A stretch of DNA of 64,000 nucleotides from Fulvia fulva (lineage: Eukaryota > Ascomycota > Dothideomycetes > Mycosphaerellales > Mycosphaerellaceae): contig NC_063016.1 of assembly GCF_020509005.1 (NCBI RefSeq), forward strand, positions 5,518,001 through 5,582,000, in the 5' to 3' direction. Below the pieces are notes generated by a model that made no database searches, was not told the origin of the DNA, and saw nothing but the letters and a program-made list of their open reading frames with translations. Of the stretch, positions 22,562-34,583 are shown in pieces; the stretch's first letter is position 1, and each line of letters opens with the position of its first letter. The translations under genes were made by a program, and so were the position numbers.

Positions 22562-24090
22562 GTCGAAAGGACTCCCTAGGTAGCTTATTAACTTTATATA
22601 GTCGTACCTCTAAAACCGTAGCACGTCGATCCTAGTCGGTTAGTACTAAAGTCTATTTTAAGTAGTCTATACTAGAATCCCGTAAGGCTTAACGCTAGTA
22701 CCTATCCTATTCCTCTTCTTTATAGCGACGCTACTCCTAGCCCTAGAATCCTAGAACACCGCTACGAGCGGCTTCGTAGCCGATACGAACATCCTAGCGT
22801 AGTCTTCCTCGACTAAGGAGAACTATAGGCTACTAGAAGAGAAGCACAAGATCTACGAGGACTAGGCTAGGAGGCACGGGGCTCGGTTTGCCCTAGAAAA
22901 GTATAATCTAATATACTTTACGCGCCGGCTACGGTTCTATAATATATAAGCTTCTATCTAGATATAGGGGTATACGACTAACCCGGCAAATCAGCTTAGG
23001 ATCCTCGGACTATAGGTAGACCCGGCGCTACGGTAGAGGAAGTACGTATAGGTAATATTACGGAAAGCTAAACAGAATATAGTATTATACTAGAGGCTTA
23101 CTACGTCTATATAGGGGGCGGACTTTCGGTAGTTACGACTTCTATATACGGCTATTATACGGCTAGTCCTTACCTATAGTAGCTAAGTTCAGTCCTTAGG
23201 TAAGAGGGCCTACCTATTAAAGGGACTCGTCGCGCCGTTAGTAAAGATCTAGAACTAATACCTAAGGAAGGTTACCGGGGTATATAAGTCGATACTAATA
23301 AGGATACTTAAGTACGAGACCGCTATACCGCCGATCGACCTATATATCTAGGGACTACGGACCTTCTACTTAGGCAAGTCGGTATAGTACCTAGTATAGA
23401 AGGTTATTGCTAGTATAGTCGTAAGGGCCCGCGAATTAGTACTAGTGTATAAGGGTATTTAACCCGGAAACGAGCCGAACTACCGGGTAAGGGACGAATA
23501 GCTAGTAATATAATAGCAAGGTAAGAAGCCGTTTATATAGTAACTATAGAAAGAGAGGTAGAACAACTAGGGTATAGGGTATAGTAGACGCCCTTAGCTA
23601 GCGGGACAACCTAAGGAATAGTTAGCTACGAAATCCGCGGTTAAGTACTACCCGAAGCTTATCTACTACCGCCTTACGAGGGTATAGAGTAGTATAGTAA
23701 CCTAACTACGAAGCGAATATATCCGCCTCTAGGGGTATCTATTATAGAGGAAGGTTCTAGAATATACAAATACTAGCTACCCCTACGGCTATTACTCCTA
23801 GAATATACGGCACGTACTCCTCGTCTATCCGAGGTAGTCGCTAGGAAGGGGGGAGTAGATAGTAAAGGCGAGGAACCGGACGATTAGGGCACTTCTTAAT
23901 AATGTTAAGGACCTACTACGTATTATAAACTAGATACTAGAGAAGGGCTAGCTAGAATAGTACCGCCTAGTAGGAGTAGTATAGGAAGAGAGGACACGAC
24001 GTAGCGCGACGAGACCGGCTAGGAGCGAGGGCTAACGGAGTAGTATTATAGACTACGTACGTTTAGAGGGAAAGCTAATCTAGATAAGGA
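22562..24090 (+). pseudogene. LINE A1 ORF2, 3' part: reverse transcriptase palm to C-terminus
   Basis: Resumes the frame cut at 10720. The catalytic block reads 'G-F-V-A-D-T-N-I-L-A' near 22770; sister copies at 36240 and 39420 have F-V-D-D-T-N, so one catalytic Asp is lost here. Downstream comes the cysteine/histidine-poor C-terminal region and, from about 24090, the conserved 3' UTR (GGGCGGGAAGGG, then the (CTAT)n tail). Stops are TAG. Confidence 0.75.
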
Positions 24091-25599: not shown

Positions 25600-26850
25600 G
25601 CAATCGTTACCTCGCCTTATAGCAAATCTAGAGAGTACTAACTAAGGAATAAACTAAGGAACTAACTAGGGTATACCCTTAGGACCCTAAAAGACAATAG
25701 TAATAATAACTATAGTATAGACAAACCTATATAACGAAGCTAAAAATATACTAGGTAATAAGGAATATCTAAGCCGGGTATATAAGAATATAATAGCCTA
25801 GCTACTAGGCGCGCTAAAGGCGCTATCCTACTAGATCCTAAAGACAATCTAATAAGCTACGCTAATAGTAGCCTAAAAGCCTACTATATAGGTAATAGTT
25901 ACTATAGGTAGGAATCCGTAACTAATAAAGGCGAGTACGGTAGTACGACTATATATTACCGACCTAATAGAGTAATAGGAGATCGTAGCTCTTATAAGTA
26001 AGGAGATCGTAGACAGGATTAGCTAGAAGGAGGTCGTAGGAGTAAAGGTAGAGTCGATAGGCGCCCTAAGACTCTTTACTACCTAAGAATCTAATAAACG
26101 TAAGCTCGAGACCTATAAGAAATAGACGACGAAGGTTACAAAATCGGTAAAGGTCTCTTACTAATAATATATACTAATAGCCTATAGAGTACCTATAACA
26201 TTTAAGGTCGAAGACCTCCCTTAGCTCTAGATATAAAACTAAGCTATATCCTTATAACTACGACTTACGAAGGCGATATAGCTCTATAGGACCGTAGAAC
26301 CTATAAAGACGTACTTATCTCTAATAGTCTAGGTAGAGACGGCGGAATAGGCGAACTAAGTCCTAGATAAGGGACTATTCTAGAACTACGAGTAACTAGA
26401 TATAGAGATCGATTAGAGTAGCTATAGAGTACTCTAATGCTTCTACTACTAATAATACCGGTATATCGCCCCTAAGTACGGAGAAAAAAGCCTCAAGTAC
26501 CCCCGATACGCCGGCCCTTACTTAGGAAAAGACTGCCTAAGGGGGGAGACTAGATACGTATACTATAGCCGAAAGTACCCGGTATACTTAAACTAATACC
26601 TAGTAAGAATCGCGGTATAAGAACGAGCGAGATAGGTAAGGGTCGCTATGCCGGCTAGATACCTATAGTAATAACAACCTTAGAAGGGAGTAGGGCTCTA
26701 TAAGGGGCTCGAGGTAAGTAAGTATAAGAGAACGGACGACCTAGTACCGACATATCCGCCGCCTAGGAGACCGAGAGACCTTAGCCGAGCGGTAAATAAG
26801 TAAGGTTAAATACGAATCGCCGAGTCGTTCTAATCTTAGCTATAGCTAAG
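25600..26850 (+). pseudogene. LINE B2 ORF1 (Gag-like)
   Basis: Shattered frame. Near 26350-26530 it reads 'L-F-stop-N-Y-E' and then a knuckle-like segment 'C-F-Y-Y ... Y-R-Y-I-A-P-K-Y' aligning with 'C-S-K-C-Q-Q-Y-G-H-I-A-P-K-C' of copy B3, with C and H turned to Y. Between about 25399 and 25600 is leader sequence without a recognisable frame. Confidence 0.6.
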
Positions 26851-26939
26851 TAGGTTATAAACCTAAGATATATAAGCCTAGGAAGAATAGATAAGTATAG
26901 AGATAGACCTTAGTAATAACAACGAATAATATAATATAG

Positions 26940-27101
26940 TAATATAATAATTATATAGTACAACGTAAATAAGAGTAAGGATAAGGTATAACGCTACTTC
27001 CTATAGGAGCTCGACCTACTATAGCACTACGTTATCGTAATATAAGAACTAAAGATCAACCTATATATAGAGTCCCTAGCTACGTATAATAATAAGAGAT
27101 A
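26940..27101 (+). pseudogene. LINE B2 ORF2, start of APE endonuclease
   Basis: The reading starts around 'N-V-N-K-S-K-D-K-V' (26963), identical to the endonuclease start of copy B3 at 48264, followed by 'I-V-I-stop-E-L' near 27030. It stops at the target site of chimera C1 and continues at 30124. Confidence 0.7.
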
Positions 27102-27116
27102 CTATATAGTTATTAC

Positions 27117-27193
27117 GGTCGACGACGAGAATCACCTGTACGTGGTGTCGGCTACGAACCTCTCGTCTAGCTACGAGAGAGCCAAGTATTCTC
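27117..27193 (+). ncRNA. Candidate HDV-like self-cleaving ribozyme at the 5' end of chimera C1
   Basis: Folded by hand into the nested double pseudoknot. P1: 27117-27123 (GGTCGAC) with 27147-27153 (GTCGGCT), 7 bp, beginning with a G-U wobble at the cleavage site. P2: 27127-27132 (GAGAAT) with 27188-27193 (ATTCTC). P3: 27134-27136 with 27144-27146, 3 bp, 7-nt loop. P1.1: possible GT 27138-27139 with AC 27154-27155. P4: 27160-27166 (CTCTCGT) with 27173-27179. J4/2 holds C27182 in C-C-A-A, fitting the catalytic C-N-R-A consensus. Cleavage before G27117 would match the element boundary. HDV-like ribozymes at LINE 5' ends are known from R2 and L1Tc. Activity is untested. Confidence 0.6.
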
Positions 27194-28200
27194 ACGCTGG
27201 AGCGTCGTGGGCGCGACGGGCGCGTAGCGTAGGCGAAGCCGCGGCGAACAGAGGACTACTAGCAAAACGGGTATGAAAACCATCCGACGAGCGTGTACTC
27301 GTGTCGGGAGCGAGTCCCTCTTCTTTCTACGTGTAAGAAGGGCGCGGAACCGTGGCCTATACGCTCGACAGGACACCTCTGGTATGAGTGCAGAATTTTC
27401 ACCTCCGGAGACCGCAAACCGAGCGGGCTAAGCGACGAACATTGGACGAGCGGACTACAGAACAACAACTGAGCGGACTATGCAACGGCGTCGAGCGGAC
27501 TACGAAACAATCTGGTGTTTGCTAGCGGGCAATGCGGTGGGTAGGTGGACACGCGACGAAGCCTGTAAGGGCCTGTTGAACACCCGGTATAGGAACGAGG
27601 GTTTTGCCTAAGGCACTGCCTGTCCCGCTACACAACGCACCTAGTCTGACATGGTAGATTGCGACGAGGAAAAGACGATAGCCTAAGCAAGGAAAAGACG
27701 GCTGTTAGGACGGGGAAAAGACGTACAATGCAAGTGGATTAGTTCTGTGATCGGGGAGGATCGAGGGCAGGGTGATAAGGAACTTCATATTGGTTAGTAG
27801 GTGGAAACGTAAGGAGTACGCTGCCCGGCGTGGTGTGTGCCCCGAGCAAACCTGCGAGGCATGGACGGCCGCTTTCTAGAGATAGGCTGCGGTAACGCGA
27901 AGGGCGTCAAAACCTGGGGCGTGGTGTACACTAGCAGCGACGGCTGACACTGTCTGTACAGCCCGAGAGGACGGATGCGCATGTCGGTCAATAGAGAGCA
28001 CTAAAGGGCTTAGGCCTATGGAGGTGGATATTGGCTTAAGGAGCAAACAGGGAGGGAGGGCGTAGAGGGAAGCTTTTGCTCCGGGCTAACCTCTCGAAAC
28101 GAGGCTATACGGTGGTGCTAGATGAGTGGGAAAGCGCGGTTAAGACTTGTCACCTTATCTCGTAGCTAGCTTGCTAAATACGATTCCTTCCTTGCTAGAG
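27117..28200 (+). repeat. Non-coding 5' module of chimera C1 (WEIRD-like)
   Basis: 1084 bp, normal CA/TG content, no credible reading frame on either strand. Starts with a foldable 77-nt ribozyme-like segment. Inside are short repeated motifs: GAGCGGACTA-type units at 27419-27510 and GGAAAAGACG-type units at 27667-27727. The copy at 33551-34583 lacks one unit of each. The 3' end of the module is CTTCCTTGCTAGAG at the LINE junction. It may be a retrotransposed non-coding RNA or the leader of an unseen LINE. Confidence 0.75.
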
Positions 28201-29923
28201 ACTTACGCAGCTTGCCGAGGACAACCACGTACTCCCAGCAACACAGATGGGGGGAAGAAGCTAGCGATCGACACTAACAGCAATGGAGCTAATTACGGAG
28301 CAAATTCAGACCCTCTGGCACTACGGCAGGAACCGAGCGGCGTCCTTACTATCCCTCGACATCGCAGGGGCCTTCGACAACGTCTCACACCAAAGGCTAA
28401 TACATATCCTACAGCAGAAAGGCATCCCCTAGTGGGCAACGTCGTTCGTCTTCTCCTTTCTCCAGGAACGGACGACATACCTAGTCCTAGGAAGGTACAC
28501 GTCCGACCCGGTGAAGGCAGAGACTGGAATACCTCAGGGATCTACTCTCTCCCCTATCCTGTTTCTGATATTTATGTCGGATCTAATCCCCCTACTCACC
28601 TCTCCGCAAACCTCAGCATCGGGGTTCGTAGACGATACAAACATCCTAGCCTGGTCAGACTCGACAGAAGAGAACTGTCGCCTCCTTGAAGATAGGCACA
28701 AGAAATGCGAGGAGTGGGCAAAGAAGCATAGTGCCCGGTTCGCCCCTGAAAAGTACCAACTTATACACTTCAGTAAAGCGAGAACACACCATAATATAAA
28801 GGCGGCGGTAAGAATCCAAGGCTACGAGACCAAGCCATCAGCGGAGCTACGAGTACTAGGGATCTGGCTCGACCCGAAGCTAAGCTGGAATGTACAGATT
28901 AAGAAAGCCCAGAGTCGAGCGCAAGTCAATGAAGCCTCGATAAAGAGGCTTACGGCATCTACATAGGGAGCAACATTCGACAAGGCAAGAGTAATGTATA
29001 AGGCGATCGTCAGACCAGCTATGTTGTACGGGGCACAGATTTGGGGAACAGGAGGCGCAGGCAAGCCGATCCCGAAACGGATAGAGCAACCCCTAAACAG
29101 GACACAGGCAGGCAACCTACGTAGGGTACTAGGCGCATACAAGACAACGTCAACAAGCACGGTAGAAATGGAGACAGGAATACCACCAATCGGCCAGTAC
29201 ATCCGGGGAATGAGAATTCAATACGCGGCAAAGACGACAGGTTACCTAGCACAAACCACGATCCAGGAGGCAAAGAATAAGATAGAAAGCCGCTACCGGA
29301 GAGGGGCAGGATATAGGACAAGCCAAAAAGAGGATGACCTTACTACCTTTACGGCCGTACAGACAAGCACCGAATGGCTAGCACGAAAGGAGGAGGAGCG
29401 TAGGACTCGCCAGGCCGGCGGGAGCAAGGCTAAGACCCAAAACCTAGCGGAACAGATAGCGAGCTGCCTATGGGAGCAGGACTGGAAAAGGAAGCCCCCT
29501 AAGACAACAGGCCCGATAGCGCTCCGAGCCTTCTAGAGACACAATTACCAGCTATATAGGGACCTGACAAGGGCCGAAGCAAGCATAGCGATCCAAATCA
29601 GGTCCGAACACATTGGATTAAGGGCCTACCTGTTCAGGAGACGCGCACTAGACATCTATAGCCCAGCCTGCCAGTGTGGCTACCCATCGCAAAACCCAGA
29701 ACATATGCTACTACGATGCCCGCAGTGGGCGAGAGGCAGGGGAAATTGGAGGCACCAAGCGGGAAGGAGAGACTACAAGTCAATTATTAGGGACAAAGGC
29801 AACATTCGCCGAATCTCTCGGTGGATACTACAGCAGGGATACCTCCAGCAGTTTAGCCTCGCGAGCGAGACGGAGGAGTGGATAGACAAGAGGCGGAAGC
29901 GAGGGGGGTTGCAGATAGGGTAG
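28201..29923 (+). pseudogene. LINE B ORF2 fragment in C1: reverse transcriptase to C-terminus
   Basis: A single frame with only a few TAG stops. Open pieces at 28511-28966, 28994-29536 and 29705-29923 are all in the same frame; the last ends at the natural stop. Landmarks: 'S-L-D-I-A-G-A-F-D-N' near 28350, 'G-I-P-Q-G-S-T-L-S-P' near 28527, catalytic 'F-V-D-D-T-N-I-L-A' near 28625, and the C-terminal knuckle 'C-Q-C-G ... E-H-M-L-L-R-C-P' near 29670-29720. The endonuclease and fingers N-terminus are absent, lost at the template junction. It begins near 'H-V-L-P-A-T-Q-M-G-G-R', so it could not serve as an independent ORF2. Confidence 0.85.
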
Positions 29924-30125
29924 TCATCAGGGCAGGCCCATGACACTAGCGTACCCCTAACAAGGGAAATTTAAGACGACAACGAGGAGGAAAAGACAGG
30001 CGGGAAGGAGGAGGGGTTTTCACCAACACGGTTTCCCCTCTATATATACAAAAACAAGATAGCATAGCTGCATAGGCCAAAGGGCACTACAACAGCTTAA
30101 TGAAATATCTATATAGTTATTACGG

Positions 30126-33100
30126 GCGAACGGGGAGTAACGCTTAGAATATATATCTACGTTAATAAGACGAAAGACCTCGATATATAGGAGACTATAC
30201 TATAACTATAGTAAGGAAGACGAGGCGACTTAATATTAATCTAGATCTCTATATCCTAAGGACCTATCTAGATCTATAGCGTCTATAACCTACTACCGTA
30301 GAGCCGTACGAGTAAGGAAATAGGGACCCTTACCTACCTAGAGAAGGCCCTATACTAAGGAGTATAATACGTACTCTTAGGCGACCTTAACCTCTACTAC
30401 CCCTAATAGGGGCTCGACTTCACTCCCCTATATATATTCCTAGGAGGATAGCTACTCGACATAACTATACGATACGGAATAGCTCTAGTAACCCTAAAGG
30501 GAATAGAGACGTAGAAGGTATATTATATATAAGTACGAGTATAATCGACCTATACTTCCTATTATAGGAACTTAAGGAAAGACTAGTTAACTACCGGCTA
30601 AACTACGTACTAGAAGTATCTTCTAACTACATCTCTTTATAGATAACGCTCGACGTAAAAGCTATAGAGGAGCCTATAAGAGAATCCCGCCGTAATTAGA
30701 AGAAAGCTCGATAGGACGAAATACGGTAATACCTTATAGTAAACCTACCGTAGAACTAGACCCTCGAGGCGATAACCTAGTTAGACTATATAGTAGAACA
30801 AGTCACTACTATAATCTAGTAAGTAGTAGAACGATATATACCGCTACTCGAACTCTCGACCTACTAGAAGCCTTACTAGACCTAGGAATATACTACGAAG
30901 GTAAAGGAAGTAAGGAAGGTAAGGAGACAATAGATAGAAGAATATACTTAAGAAGTATAGGATCGATACTACCGCGTAGTATAGGATAAGAAGGTATAAA
31001 TACGGCGCGACAAACTATAAGAATAGAGAGCGATAGTAGGGATAGTTATAGAGTACCTAGAGCAAATATAGAGACTCGCTAAATAGGTAAGATCACCTAG
31101 AGAAGAAAGGGCTCCCTACTTCCCCCCGATCGTAAACCGCAAAGGGTTACTTAGACTACGCCTAGAGATAAAGCTAGAGTCTTAGCCGATCACTTCTTCT
31201 CGATATACGTAGAGGCGGACCTTACTAATATAGACTCGATAACGTACCCAGAGCTACTAGAAATAGACTAGGCGGTTACCCTAGAGATAGTAGAGGGAGT
31301 TATAGGCAAGCTTAAGAGACGAAAAGCCCCGGGGCTAGATAAGATACCTAACCTCCTACTAAAAGAGTATACGAAGGAAATCGCCCCGAGCCTAGTAGCC
31401 CTTTTTACCGTATACCTACGATAAGGATACTACCCGAAGCCGTATAGAGAATCGATAATAGTAGTACTTAGGAAGCTATAGAAGGAGGACTATACTCGAC
31501 TTAAGTTATACCGACCGATTACGCCCCTTAATACGATAGGTAAGGTCCTCGAGAAGATAGGAGCCTAGAGGATTACGCGAATAGTTAAGGATAACTACCT
31601 ACTCCTAGTAATATAGATAGGCAAACGGAGCTAACGGTTAACGCTAACGGCGAAAGAACTAATTACGGAATAGATCTAAACCCTCTAGTACTATAGTAGG
31701 AACCGGGTAGCGTTACTACTCTCTCTCGACATCTTAGGAGCGTTCGATAATGTCTTATACAAAAGGTATATCTATATCCTACGATAGAAAGGTATCCCCC
31801 TCTAGGCTATAGAATTTGTCTACTCCTTCCTCTAAGACCGGACGACAAATATCCTTCTCGGAAGGTATAGATCCGATCCGGTAAAAGTAATAACTAGGAT
31901 TCCTTAAGGATCTACTCTCTCTCCTATCCTATTCCTTACCTTTATAGCGGACCTTATCCTACTACTAACCTCCCCGTAGACCTTAGTATCGGGGTTCGTT
32001 AACGATACTTATATCCTCGCCTAGTCTAACTCTATAGAGGAGAACTACCGCCTACTCGAGGAGAGACACTAATAGTACGAGTAGTAGGTAAGGAAAAATA
32101 GCGCCCGTTTCGCTCTAGAGAAATATAAGCTTATATACTTTAGTAAGGCAAAGACGTACTATAATATAGAGGTAGTAGTAGATATCTAGGGATACGAGAC
32201 GAAACCTTCTAGCGAGCTTAGGGTTCTAGGGTTCTAGATCGACCCGAAGCTAAGCTAGAACCTATAGATTAAGAAGGCCCTAGACCGGACCCGGACTAAC
32301 GAGGCTTCGGTAAAGAGACTAATAGTATCTACCTAGGGGGCGACGTTCGAGAAGGCGAAGGTAATATATAAGGTAATAGTAAAACCGATAATACTTTACG
32401 GGGCGTAGATATAGGCTACGGGCGGAGCGGACAAACTAATCCCGAGGCGGATAGAGTAATCCCTTAAACGCGCGTAGGCGGGTAACCTACGACGGATACT
32501 AGGGGCCTATAGAAAAATACCGACGGATACGATAGAGATAGAGACCGGAACACCCCCGATCGCCTAATATATAAGGGGAATAAGAACCTAGTACGCCGCG
32601 AAGACAAGTAACTATCTAGTATAGACTACTATCTAAGAGGTAAAGAGGACGATCGCGAACCGCTACTAGAGAGGACCCGGATATAAGATAAGCTCAAAGG
32701 AGGACGACCTTAAAACCTTTATAGCCGTATAGGTAAGTACTAAATAGTAGGAGCGGAAAGTAGAGGAGTAGAGCGTCCGCTAGGCCTATAGAAGTAAGGT
32801 AAAGACCTAGAGCCTCGTAGAATAAGTAGCGAGCTACCTATAGGAGTAGGAATAGAAAAAGAGACCCCCTAAGACAATAGGCCTAATAGTACTTCAAACC
32901 TTCTAGAGACATAACTACTAACTATATAAGGACCTTACTAGGACTAAAGTAAGTATAGCAATCCAAATCAGGTCCGAATATATCGGGTTAAGGGCCTACC
33001 TATTTAGAAGACACGTACTAGATATCGAGAGCTTAGCTTACTAATATAGCTATCTATCGTAAAACCCGGAGTATATACTACTATAATGCCCGTAGTAGGT

Positions 33101-33550: not shown

Positions 33551-33627
33551 GGTCGACGACGAGAATTACCTATACGTAGTATCGGCTACGAACCTCTCGT
33601 CTTACTACGAGAGAGCTAAGTATTCTT
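33551..33627 (+). ncRNA. Decayed copy of the HDV-like ribozyme candidate
   Basis: Same layout as 27117-27193: P1 GGTCGA with TCGGCT (33582-33587) keeps 6 bp and loses the seventh to A; P2 GAGAAT with ATTCTT (33622-33627) keeps pairing through G-U; P4 CTCTCGT with ACGAGAG is intact; the C-N-R-A motif is C-T-A-A at 33616-33619. P3 has one C-A mismatch and P1.1 is weakened. The damage is RIP-type, so this copy is probably inactive. Confidence 0.5.
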
Positions 33628-34583
33628 ACGCTAGAGCGTCGTAGGCGCGACGGGCGCGTAACGTAGGCAAAGCCGCGGCGAATAGAGGACTACTAGTAAA
33701 ACGGGTACAAAAACTATCCGACGAGCGTATACTCGTATCGGGAGCGAATCCCTCTTCTTTCTACGTATAAGAAGGGCGCGGAACCGTGGCCTATACGCTC
33801 GATAGGACACCTCTAGTATAAGTATAGAATTTTCACCTCTAGAGACCGTAAACCGAGCGGACTATAGAACAATAACTAAGCGGACTATACGACGGCGTCG
33901 AGCGGACTACGAAACAATCTAGTGTTTACTAGCGGGCAATACGGTAGGTAGGTAGATATACGACGAAGCCTATAAGAGCCTATTAAGTACCCGGTATAGG
34001 AACGAGGGTTTTACTTAACGCTCTACCTATCCCGCTATATAACGCACCTAGTCTGATATAGTAGATTACGACGAGGAAAAGACGATAGCCTAAGTAAGGA
34101 AAAGACGTATAATATAAGTAGATTAGTTCTATAATCGGGGAGGATCGAGGGTAGGGTAATAAGGAACTTTATATTAGTTAGTAGGTAGAAACGTAAGAAG
34201 TACGCTACCCGGCGTAGTGTGTGCCCCGAGTAAACCTACGAGGTATAGACGGCCGCTTTCTAGAGATAGGCTACGGTAATATAAAGGGCGTTAAAACCTA
34301 GGGCGTAGTAGATACTAGTAGCGACGGCTGATACTATCTATATAGCCTAAGAGGACGGATATATATGTCGGTCAATAGAGAGTACTAAAGGGCTTAGGCC
34401 TATAGAGGTAGATATTGGCTTAAGGAGTAAATAGGGAGGGAGGGCGTAGAGGGAAGCTTTTACTCCGGGCTAACCTCTCGAAACGAGGCTATACGGTAGT
34501 ACTAGATAAGTAGGAAAGCGCGGTTAAGACTTACTACCTTATCTCGTAGCTAGCTTACTAAATACAATTCCTTCCTTACTAGA
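33551..34583 (+). repeat. Non-coding 5' module of chimera C2
   Basis: Aligns end to end with 27117-28200 apart from RIP-type changes and at least two deletions of repeat units (one GAGCGGACTA-type and one GGAAAAGACG-type). Ends ...CTTCCTTACTAGA, where LINE A begins. Confidence 0.85.

Follow-up and report, generated by a model that had tools for sequence, protein, structure and literature searches.

A predicted HDV-like ribozyme at the 5′ end of a WEIRD-like non-coding retroelement module in Fulvia fulva

Retrotransposons such as R2 and L1Tc/ingi carry hepatitis delta virus (HDV)-like ribozymes at or close to their 5′ ends (PMC3774820, PMC4035085). Another described system is the MINE retroelement of Magnaporthe grisea, in which a full-length non-coding 5′ module of about 1.1 kb, WEIRD, is placed on a 5′-truncated long interspersed nuclear element (LINE) between target duplications; solo copies of the module were not reported (PMC2104539). 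The same arrangement was found in a stretch of 64,000 nt from the genome of Fulvia fulva (contig NC_063016.1), hereafter called the window. Here, a retroelement insertion at positions 27117-30108 is bounded by 15-nt target duplications and begins with a non-coding module of 1,078 nt, compared with 1,113 nt in M. grisea. Judged by its sequence, the first 77 nt of this module (27117-27193) can pair as a complete HDV-like nested double pseudoknot comprising P1, P2, P3, P1.1 and P4. Very probably, these nucleotides act as a self-cleaving ribozyme of the HDV-like class, by which the 5′ end of a LINE-dependent mobile RNA is made.

A first-pass annotation of the window had proposed P1, P2, P3 with a 7-nt loop and P4, and each helix was found at the place assigned to it (Table 1). 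In the HDV-like class P1 is opened by a G at the cleavage site, in a G-U or G-C pair; here the G at the predicted site opens P1 as G-U. The 2-bp P1.1 that had been considered possible is present and is best formed between loop L3 and the nucleotides following P1. Likewise, the J4/2 segment contains the predicted C-C-A-A motif with C27182 as candidate catalytic cytosine. A catalytic role of the cytosine at the start of J4/2 has been described for HDV-like ribozymes (PMC10879173). Strictly, C27182 is the first nucleotide of J4/2 only if C27159 pairs with G27181, an extension of P4 that is possible with A27180 bulged out (read by eye). The presence of an HDV-like fold at the start of the element was thus confirmed at the level of sequence, as were its exact 5′ position and the MINE-type chimera.

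Table 1. Features of the F. fulva insertion and of the predicted ribozyme (positions in the window).
Feature	Position	Strand	Basis or remark
Left target-site duplication, 15 nt, CTATATAGTTATTAC	27102..27116	+	identical to 30109-30123
Right target-site duplication	30109..30123	+	same 15 nt as 27102-27116
Non-coding module, 1,078 nt, WEIRD-like, fixed 5′ and 3′ ends	27117..28194	+	comparison of copies
5′-truncated LINE fragment, reverse transcriptase remains	28195..30108	+	PF00078 RVT_1, E 9.3e-14 in 28433-28966
Older module copy with repeat-induced point mutations, same first base	33551..34577	+	aligned to module positions 1-1077
HDV-like ribozyme, cut predicted before G27117	27117..27193	+	helices, RF02682 alignment start, chance estimate
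P1, 7 bp, GGUCGAC x GUCGGCU, first pair G27117-U27153	27117-27123/27147-27153	+	
P2, 6 bp, GAGAAU x AUUCUC, pseudoknot	27127-27132/27188-27193	+	
P3, 3 bp, ACC/GGU, with 7-nt L3 UGUACGU at 27137-27143	27134-27136/27144-27146	+	
P1.1, 2 bp, G27138-C27155 and U27139-A27154	27138-27139/27154-27155	+	best reading
P4, 7-bp hairpin, CUCUCGU/ACGAGAG	27160-27166/27173-27179	+	
J4/2, CCAAGU, C27182 candidate catalytic cytosine	27182..27187	+	C in 65/66 copies

Comparison of copies placed the predicted cut at the first base of the element. In the window the target duplication ends at position -1, directly before G27117, and the same was observed in the three of 65 copies for which a duplication was detected by script (loci L017, L028 and L092). 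The first-pass annotation had equated the cut site with the junction of duplication and element. Both fall on the same base in these copies and in the window, with an ambiguity of one base in L028 and of two bases in the window, as G or GGG follows the downstream duplication there. In the window GG follows both copies of the duplication and a length of up to 17 nt is possible; L017 and L092 are unambiguous. The base preceding module position 1 (G1) is unconstrained (A 29, T 17, C 12 and G 7 in 65 copies).

Several hundred copies of the module exist in the F. fulva genome. Allowing up to 3 mismatches, a 26-nt pattern from the 5′ end occurs at 551 places and a 30-nt pattern from the 3′ end at 606 places; the exact 77 nt are present at 131 places. 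Alignments in the fetched loci begin at module position 1 in 92 of 93 cases, the exception being a second, partial module in locus L044. This count is affected by selection, as L001-L030 and L034-L063 were caught by their 5′ part. Each of the 30 loci obtained through the 3′ pattern (L064-L093) extends to G1 as well; they are the first 30 of the 606 matches, lie on one contig and are partly the same copies as the others. Three module 3′ ends on the minus strand of C1 (C1:8826063, 8830730 and 8835401) show a near-even spacing of about 4.67 kb, perhaps reflecting tandem duplication of one chimera. The longest open reading frames starting with ATG in the module encode 52 amino acids on the plus and 62 on the minus strand (1,077 nt analyzed). 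The older copy at 33551-34577 is heavily altered by repeat-induced point mutation (RIP), differs in length by 27 nt and 23 nt, and has CUAAG as J4/2. In four other isolates of F. fulva, 29-31% of the repeats belong to LINE/Tad1 (PMC10823647).

The frequency of such a fold in random sequence was estimated with two descriptors. A loose structural descriptor, the tolerances of which had been chosen in part with knowledge of the module, matched 249 of 4,956,151 G positions (5e-5) in a random background with the dinucleotide make-up of the module. With the P2+P4 length of the module and a 7-nt loop, 5 of these 4,956,151 positions were left (approx. 1e-6). The second descriptor was built on the core letters of the consensus of RF02682 (HDV-F-prausnitzii), which the L3/P3 core of the module matches at 14 of 15 positions. 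It assigned a score of 32 to the module, compared with 29 for the highest-scoring of 62.05 million random positions, among which there were 60 matches in total. With the core included, the descriptor search suggested by the first-pass annotation placed the module above every random position. Within the window the core-based descriptor detected only 27117 (score 32) and the older copy at 33551 (score 29). In agreement with a cut at this site, the RF02682 alignment obtained in a 501-base scan starts exactly at G27117 and contains no pair marked as non-standard. The loose descriptor matched eight places in the window. Four of them, at 24066 and 37534 on the plus and 63727 and 38135 on the minus strand, are copies of one repeat that have no core-based match and probably fit by chance.

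Comparison with sequences from other organisms provided a limited number of pair changes. Fifteen public loci were fetched by patterns of core and J4/2 letters, two of which fixed slightly different letters; one further pattern search gave no locus. Agreement in core and J4/2 among these loci is therefore by construction; P1, P2, P4 and P1.1 lie outside the patterns. A uniform rule for P1 and P2 was passed by the module and by five of the 15 loci, one on a clostridial contig (L095) and four on viral contigs (L099, L101, L104 and L105), and was failed by the other ten. Because MAFFT left P1 and P4 unaligned, the helices were compared by hand parsing, which was checked by script. The letters of P1 and P2 vary among the module and the five relatives, and pairing is kept. 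In P1.1 all five relatives have C-G and U-A, compared with G-C and U-A in the module, so that one pair is changed on both sides. For L104 the G-U opening of P1 and the C-G pair of P1.1 hold only if P1 is read as 6 bp. This apparent covariation in P1, P2 and P1.1 is small, yet it is of a kind that genomic copies cannot give. In the phage locus L101, whose P1 3′ strand GUCGGCU is identical to that of the module, a tRNA-Cys (ARAGORN) terminates right at the predicted cleavage site. L101 is theta-like in this respect, as theta ribozymes adjoin a tRNA (PMC10879173). L103 was rejected as a further relative because it fails the P1 and P2 rule and because a tRNA placed by ARAGORN shares 8 nt with its proposed P1.

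The module is also defined at its 3′ end, which reads ...CCTTCCTTG. Of 66 copies, 65 extend over positions 1070-1077, and all of these have CCTTCCTT there; the next position, 1078, is G in 63 of the 65 and A in the other 2. The LINE part downstream varies between copies, with 57 distinct 15-nt starts among 66 copies. If the two copies named L017 are treated as one and L044, which overlaps the module itself, is included, the LINE piece under each of the 64 locus names overlaps that of another copy or the window. The two letters after the terminal G are CC in 43 copies, CT in 14, CA in 3, TT in 2, TC in 2 and GG in 1. At 54 joints the uncut LINE is known from another copy, and the same two letters are present there. 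The CC is therefore either LINE sequence or shared between the LINE and a module ending in CC, and the fixed 3′ end is perhaps ...CCUUCCUUG plus CC. CC was found at 37 of these 54 joints (window position 28195 and fetched loci) against a CC background of 7.0% in the LINE pieces. These C-rich joints resemble those of MINE, which follow a GCC rule (PMC2104539). No solo module was seen among the copies examined. L044:1501-3026 holds a complete module fused directly to position 371 of another one, an arrangement that looks like a jump between two module RNAs.

The fold, its coincidence with the element start to the single base, the hundreds of copies, their full-length 5′ ends and the variable LINE junctions can all be read from the DNA itself. 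As a model, we propose that a transcript reads in from flanking DNA and would be cut before G27117 during formation of the pseudoknot, so that an RNA with a 5′-hydroxyl end is set free. The LINE reverse transcriptase would first copy part of its own RNA at a nick and might then jump to the 3′ end of the module RNA, which would serve as acceptor of the template jump. Copying would proceed up to the ribozyme-made end, followed by insertion, and therefore each new copy would again hold a complete ribozyme. Such a 5′ end would explain how the copies of the module stay full length. The best reading is that the module is a MINE/WEIRD-type parasite RNA, the 5′ end of which is cut by its own predicted ribozyme. 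A more far-reaching version is conceivable, to which we give somewhat less than even chances. The module might be a retro-parasite lacking both coding capacity and a LINE 3′ signal and spreading only via end-to-end template jumps, with a ribozyme-made 5′ end that dispenses with a promoter and a 3′ end suited to capturing LINE cDNA with a terminal GG. If this were true, the nature of Magnaporthe WEIRD would be answered too.

Several results weigh against a ribozyme-made 5′ end. No Rfam family reached its cut-off anywhere in the window. RF02682 scored 13.1 bits at 27117 (E 8.7; 501-base scan), far below the gathering cut-off of 44 bits that decides family membership, and was not listed at E ≤ 10 in a scan of 1,104 bases containing the module. 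The covariance model check proposed by the first-pass annotation thus yielded an alignment beginning at the expected base and no family at its cut-off. The minimum-energy nested fold of the site differs from the proposed one (-21.5 versus -19.2 kcal/mol for P1, P3 and P4, with P2 uncounted). For the sequence up to nucleotide 70, before P2 can form, the minimum-energy fold has P1 and P4, and a 5-bp hairpin in another register replaces P3. Compared with shuffled sequences the folding energy of the 77 nt is ordinary (z -0.15). Among 66 distinct genomic copies, in which 900 of 1,120 substitutions are of the RIP type, every pair and C66 (C27182 in the window) are kept in 52; in the remaining 14 a pair is disrupted or C66 is absent, mostly by RIP-type G-to-A changes. 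The breaks comprise C20-A28 in 12 copies, A22-C39 in 9, C7-A31 in 2 and further single cases in P2 and P4; C66 is changed to A in one copy. The alignment of genomic copies recommended by the first-pass annotation revealed no informative covariation among the 66, because they are either near-identical or decayed by RIP. Finally, no solo source gene was seen among the 93 pattern-caught loci examined, and no mechanism was found for the fixed 3′ end of the module.

The weak Rfam score and the ordinary folding energy would also fit an ordinary structured RNA whose start resembles the fold by chance. We regard this as extremely improbable, since structure alone, at the helix lengths of the module, gives a frequency of about 1e-6 and none of the random positions matched equally well once the core was included. 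More serious is the possibility that G1 is a transcription start and the RNA is capped. Full copying of capped RNAs also yields exact 5′ ends, and the ribozyme would then be either a vestige or dispensable for making the 5′ end. Words resembling the A-box of RNA polymerase III promoters are located at module positions 109 and 144, the best B-box words having 2 mismatches, and Magnaporthe WEIRD has been proposed to be a housekeeping RNA (PMC2104539). A capped RNA is nevertheless unlikely, since the predicted cleavage site equals the element start to the base, which is not readily ascribed to chance, and since the duplications meet G1 without an extra base.

A circular or concatemeric RNA replicon of the viroid or retrozyme kind, processed into single units by the ribozyme, would generate both ends of the module at once. 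Both ends are indeed fixed, and solo modules were seen neither here nor in the Magnaporthe survey (PMC2104539). However, a genome search for head-to-tail module junctions with a gap of 0-12 gave 0 exact matches, and the loose descriptor revealed no second site on either strand of the module. Rfam lists no ribozyme in the module, the 27117 site being unlisted there as well. The circular fold (-361 kcal/mol) is less stable than that of 20 shuffled sequences (-383 ± 14 kcal/mol). We consider such a replicon very unlikely, and cleavage of a read-through transcript by the predicted ribozyme remains the preferred explanation.

Genome-wide Rfam searches pointed to other loci. With RF02682 (61 of 4,721 candidates scored), three loci other than the module were obtained at E 4-10 and the module was absent; among 14 unrelated control genomes, 8 gave matches in this search that likewise stayed below the cut-off. 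With RF00622 (59 of 4,352 candidates scored), nothing was found in the genome at E ≤ 10, and matches occurred in 12 of the 14 controls. The top RF02682 matches, L031:1501-1600 (C4:931898) and L032:1501-1600 (C2:1583440), scored 20.9 and 20.3 bits (E 4-6), below the cut-off. They have a 70-nt block in common (94%) that starts 3 nt before the predicted cleavage site, the flanks being otherwise unaligned. Both have the same P1/P3/L3 layout, with a possible P2 (GGCAG/CUGCC) past a variable hairpin (by eye). The E-value of 0.0069 that L031 reached with RF00622 in a 201-base scan should not be over-read, because the genome-wide RF00622 search gave nothing. A 417-aa reading frame in L032 has 100% identity to a F. 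fulva protein. The two loci are a candidate second HDV-like pair in F. fulva.

According to the first-pass annotation, a ribozyme is not known to have been described for a MINE-type fungal chimera. Consistent with this, titles and abstract openings among the matches listed in our literature search contained nothing joining WEIRD/MINE or F. fulva to a ribozyme. Neither ribozyme nor self-cleav occurs in the main text of PMC2104539, and the main texts of PMC9453070 and PMC10823647 do not use the word ribozyme. The F. fulva insertion has the MINE/WEIRD architecture, with duplications resolved in three copies and the window, and the support for kinship with Magnaporthe WEIRD is of this architectural kind. 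The two differ in number, 33 bipartite chimeras having been described for MINE (PMC2104539) compared with hundreds of module copies here, and the fungi belong to different classes. A ribozyme at the module start would offer a direct, testable answer to the full-length 5′ parts of fungal MINE chimeras and may say what WEIRD is, which has been regarded as probably a housekeeping RNA, its function being unknown.

By its fold the site is close to RF02682 ribozymes of the Faecalibacterium type and to phage theta ribozymes, with which it shares the double-pseudoknot layout, the L3/P3 core and a J4/2 of the form CNAAG. It differs from them by its location at the end of a retroelement in a fungus, the swapped pair in P1.1, C in place of U in J4/2 and a score far under the RF02682 cut-off. 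In phage theta ribozymes the cut lies no more than 5 nt from the 3′ end of a tRNA, whereas no tRNA was detected within 26500-30500 of the window. The closeness of the core to phage and bacterial HDV-like ribozymes bears on how frequently the fold originates or is transferred between domains of life. Retrozymes (PMC4918200, PMC7229834) are likewise non-coding retroelements with a self-cleaving ribozyme. They use hammerheads and circular RNA, whereas the F. fulva site is HDV-like and no dimer junction was found in the genome. In its position the site resembles the ribozymes of R2 and L1Tc/ingi, which lie at the 5′ end, or close to it, of an RNA mobilised by a LINE and free it from a co-transcript, in R2 at the precise 5′ junction (PMC3774820, PMC4035085). 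In these elements the ribozyme is the retrotransposon's own, whereas in F. fulva it is predicted on an unrelated non-coding RNA that would be linked to the LINE by template jumping. A ribozyme arrangement previously known for LINEs themselves thus appears to head a free-standing, non-coding hitch-hiker RNA.
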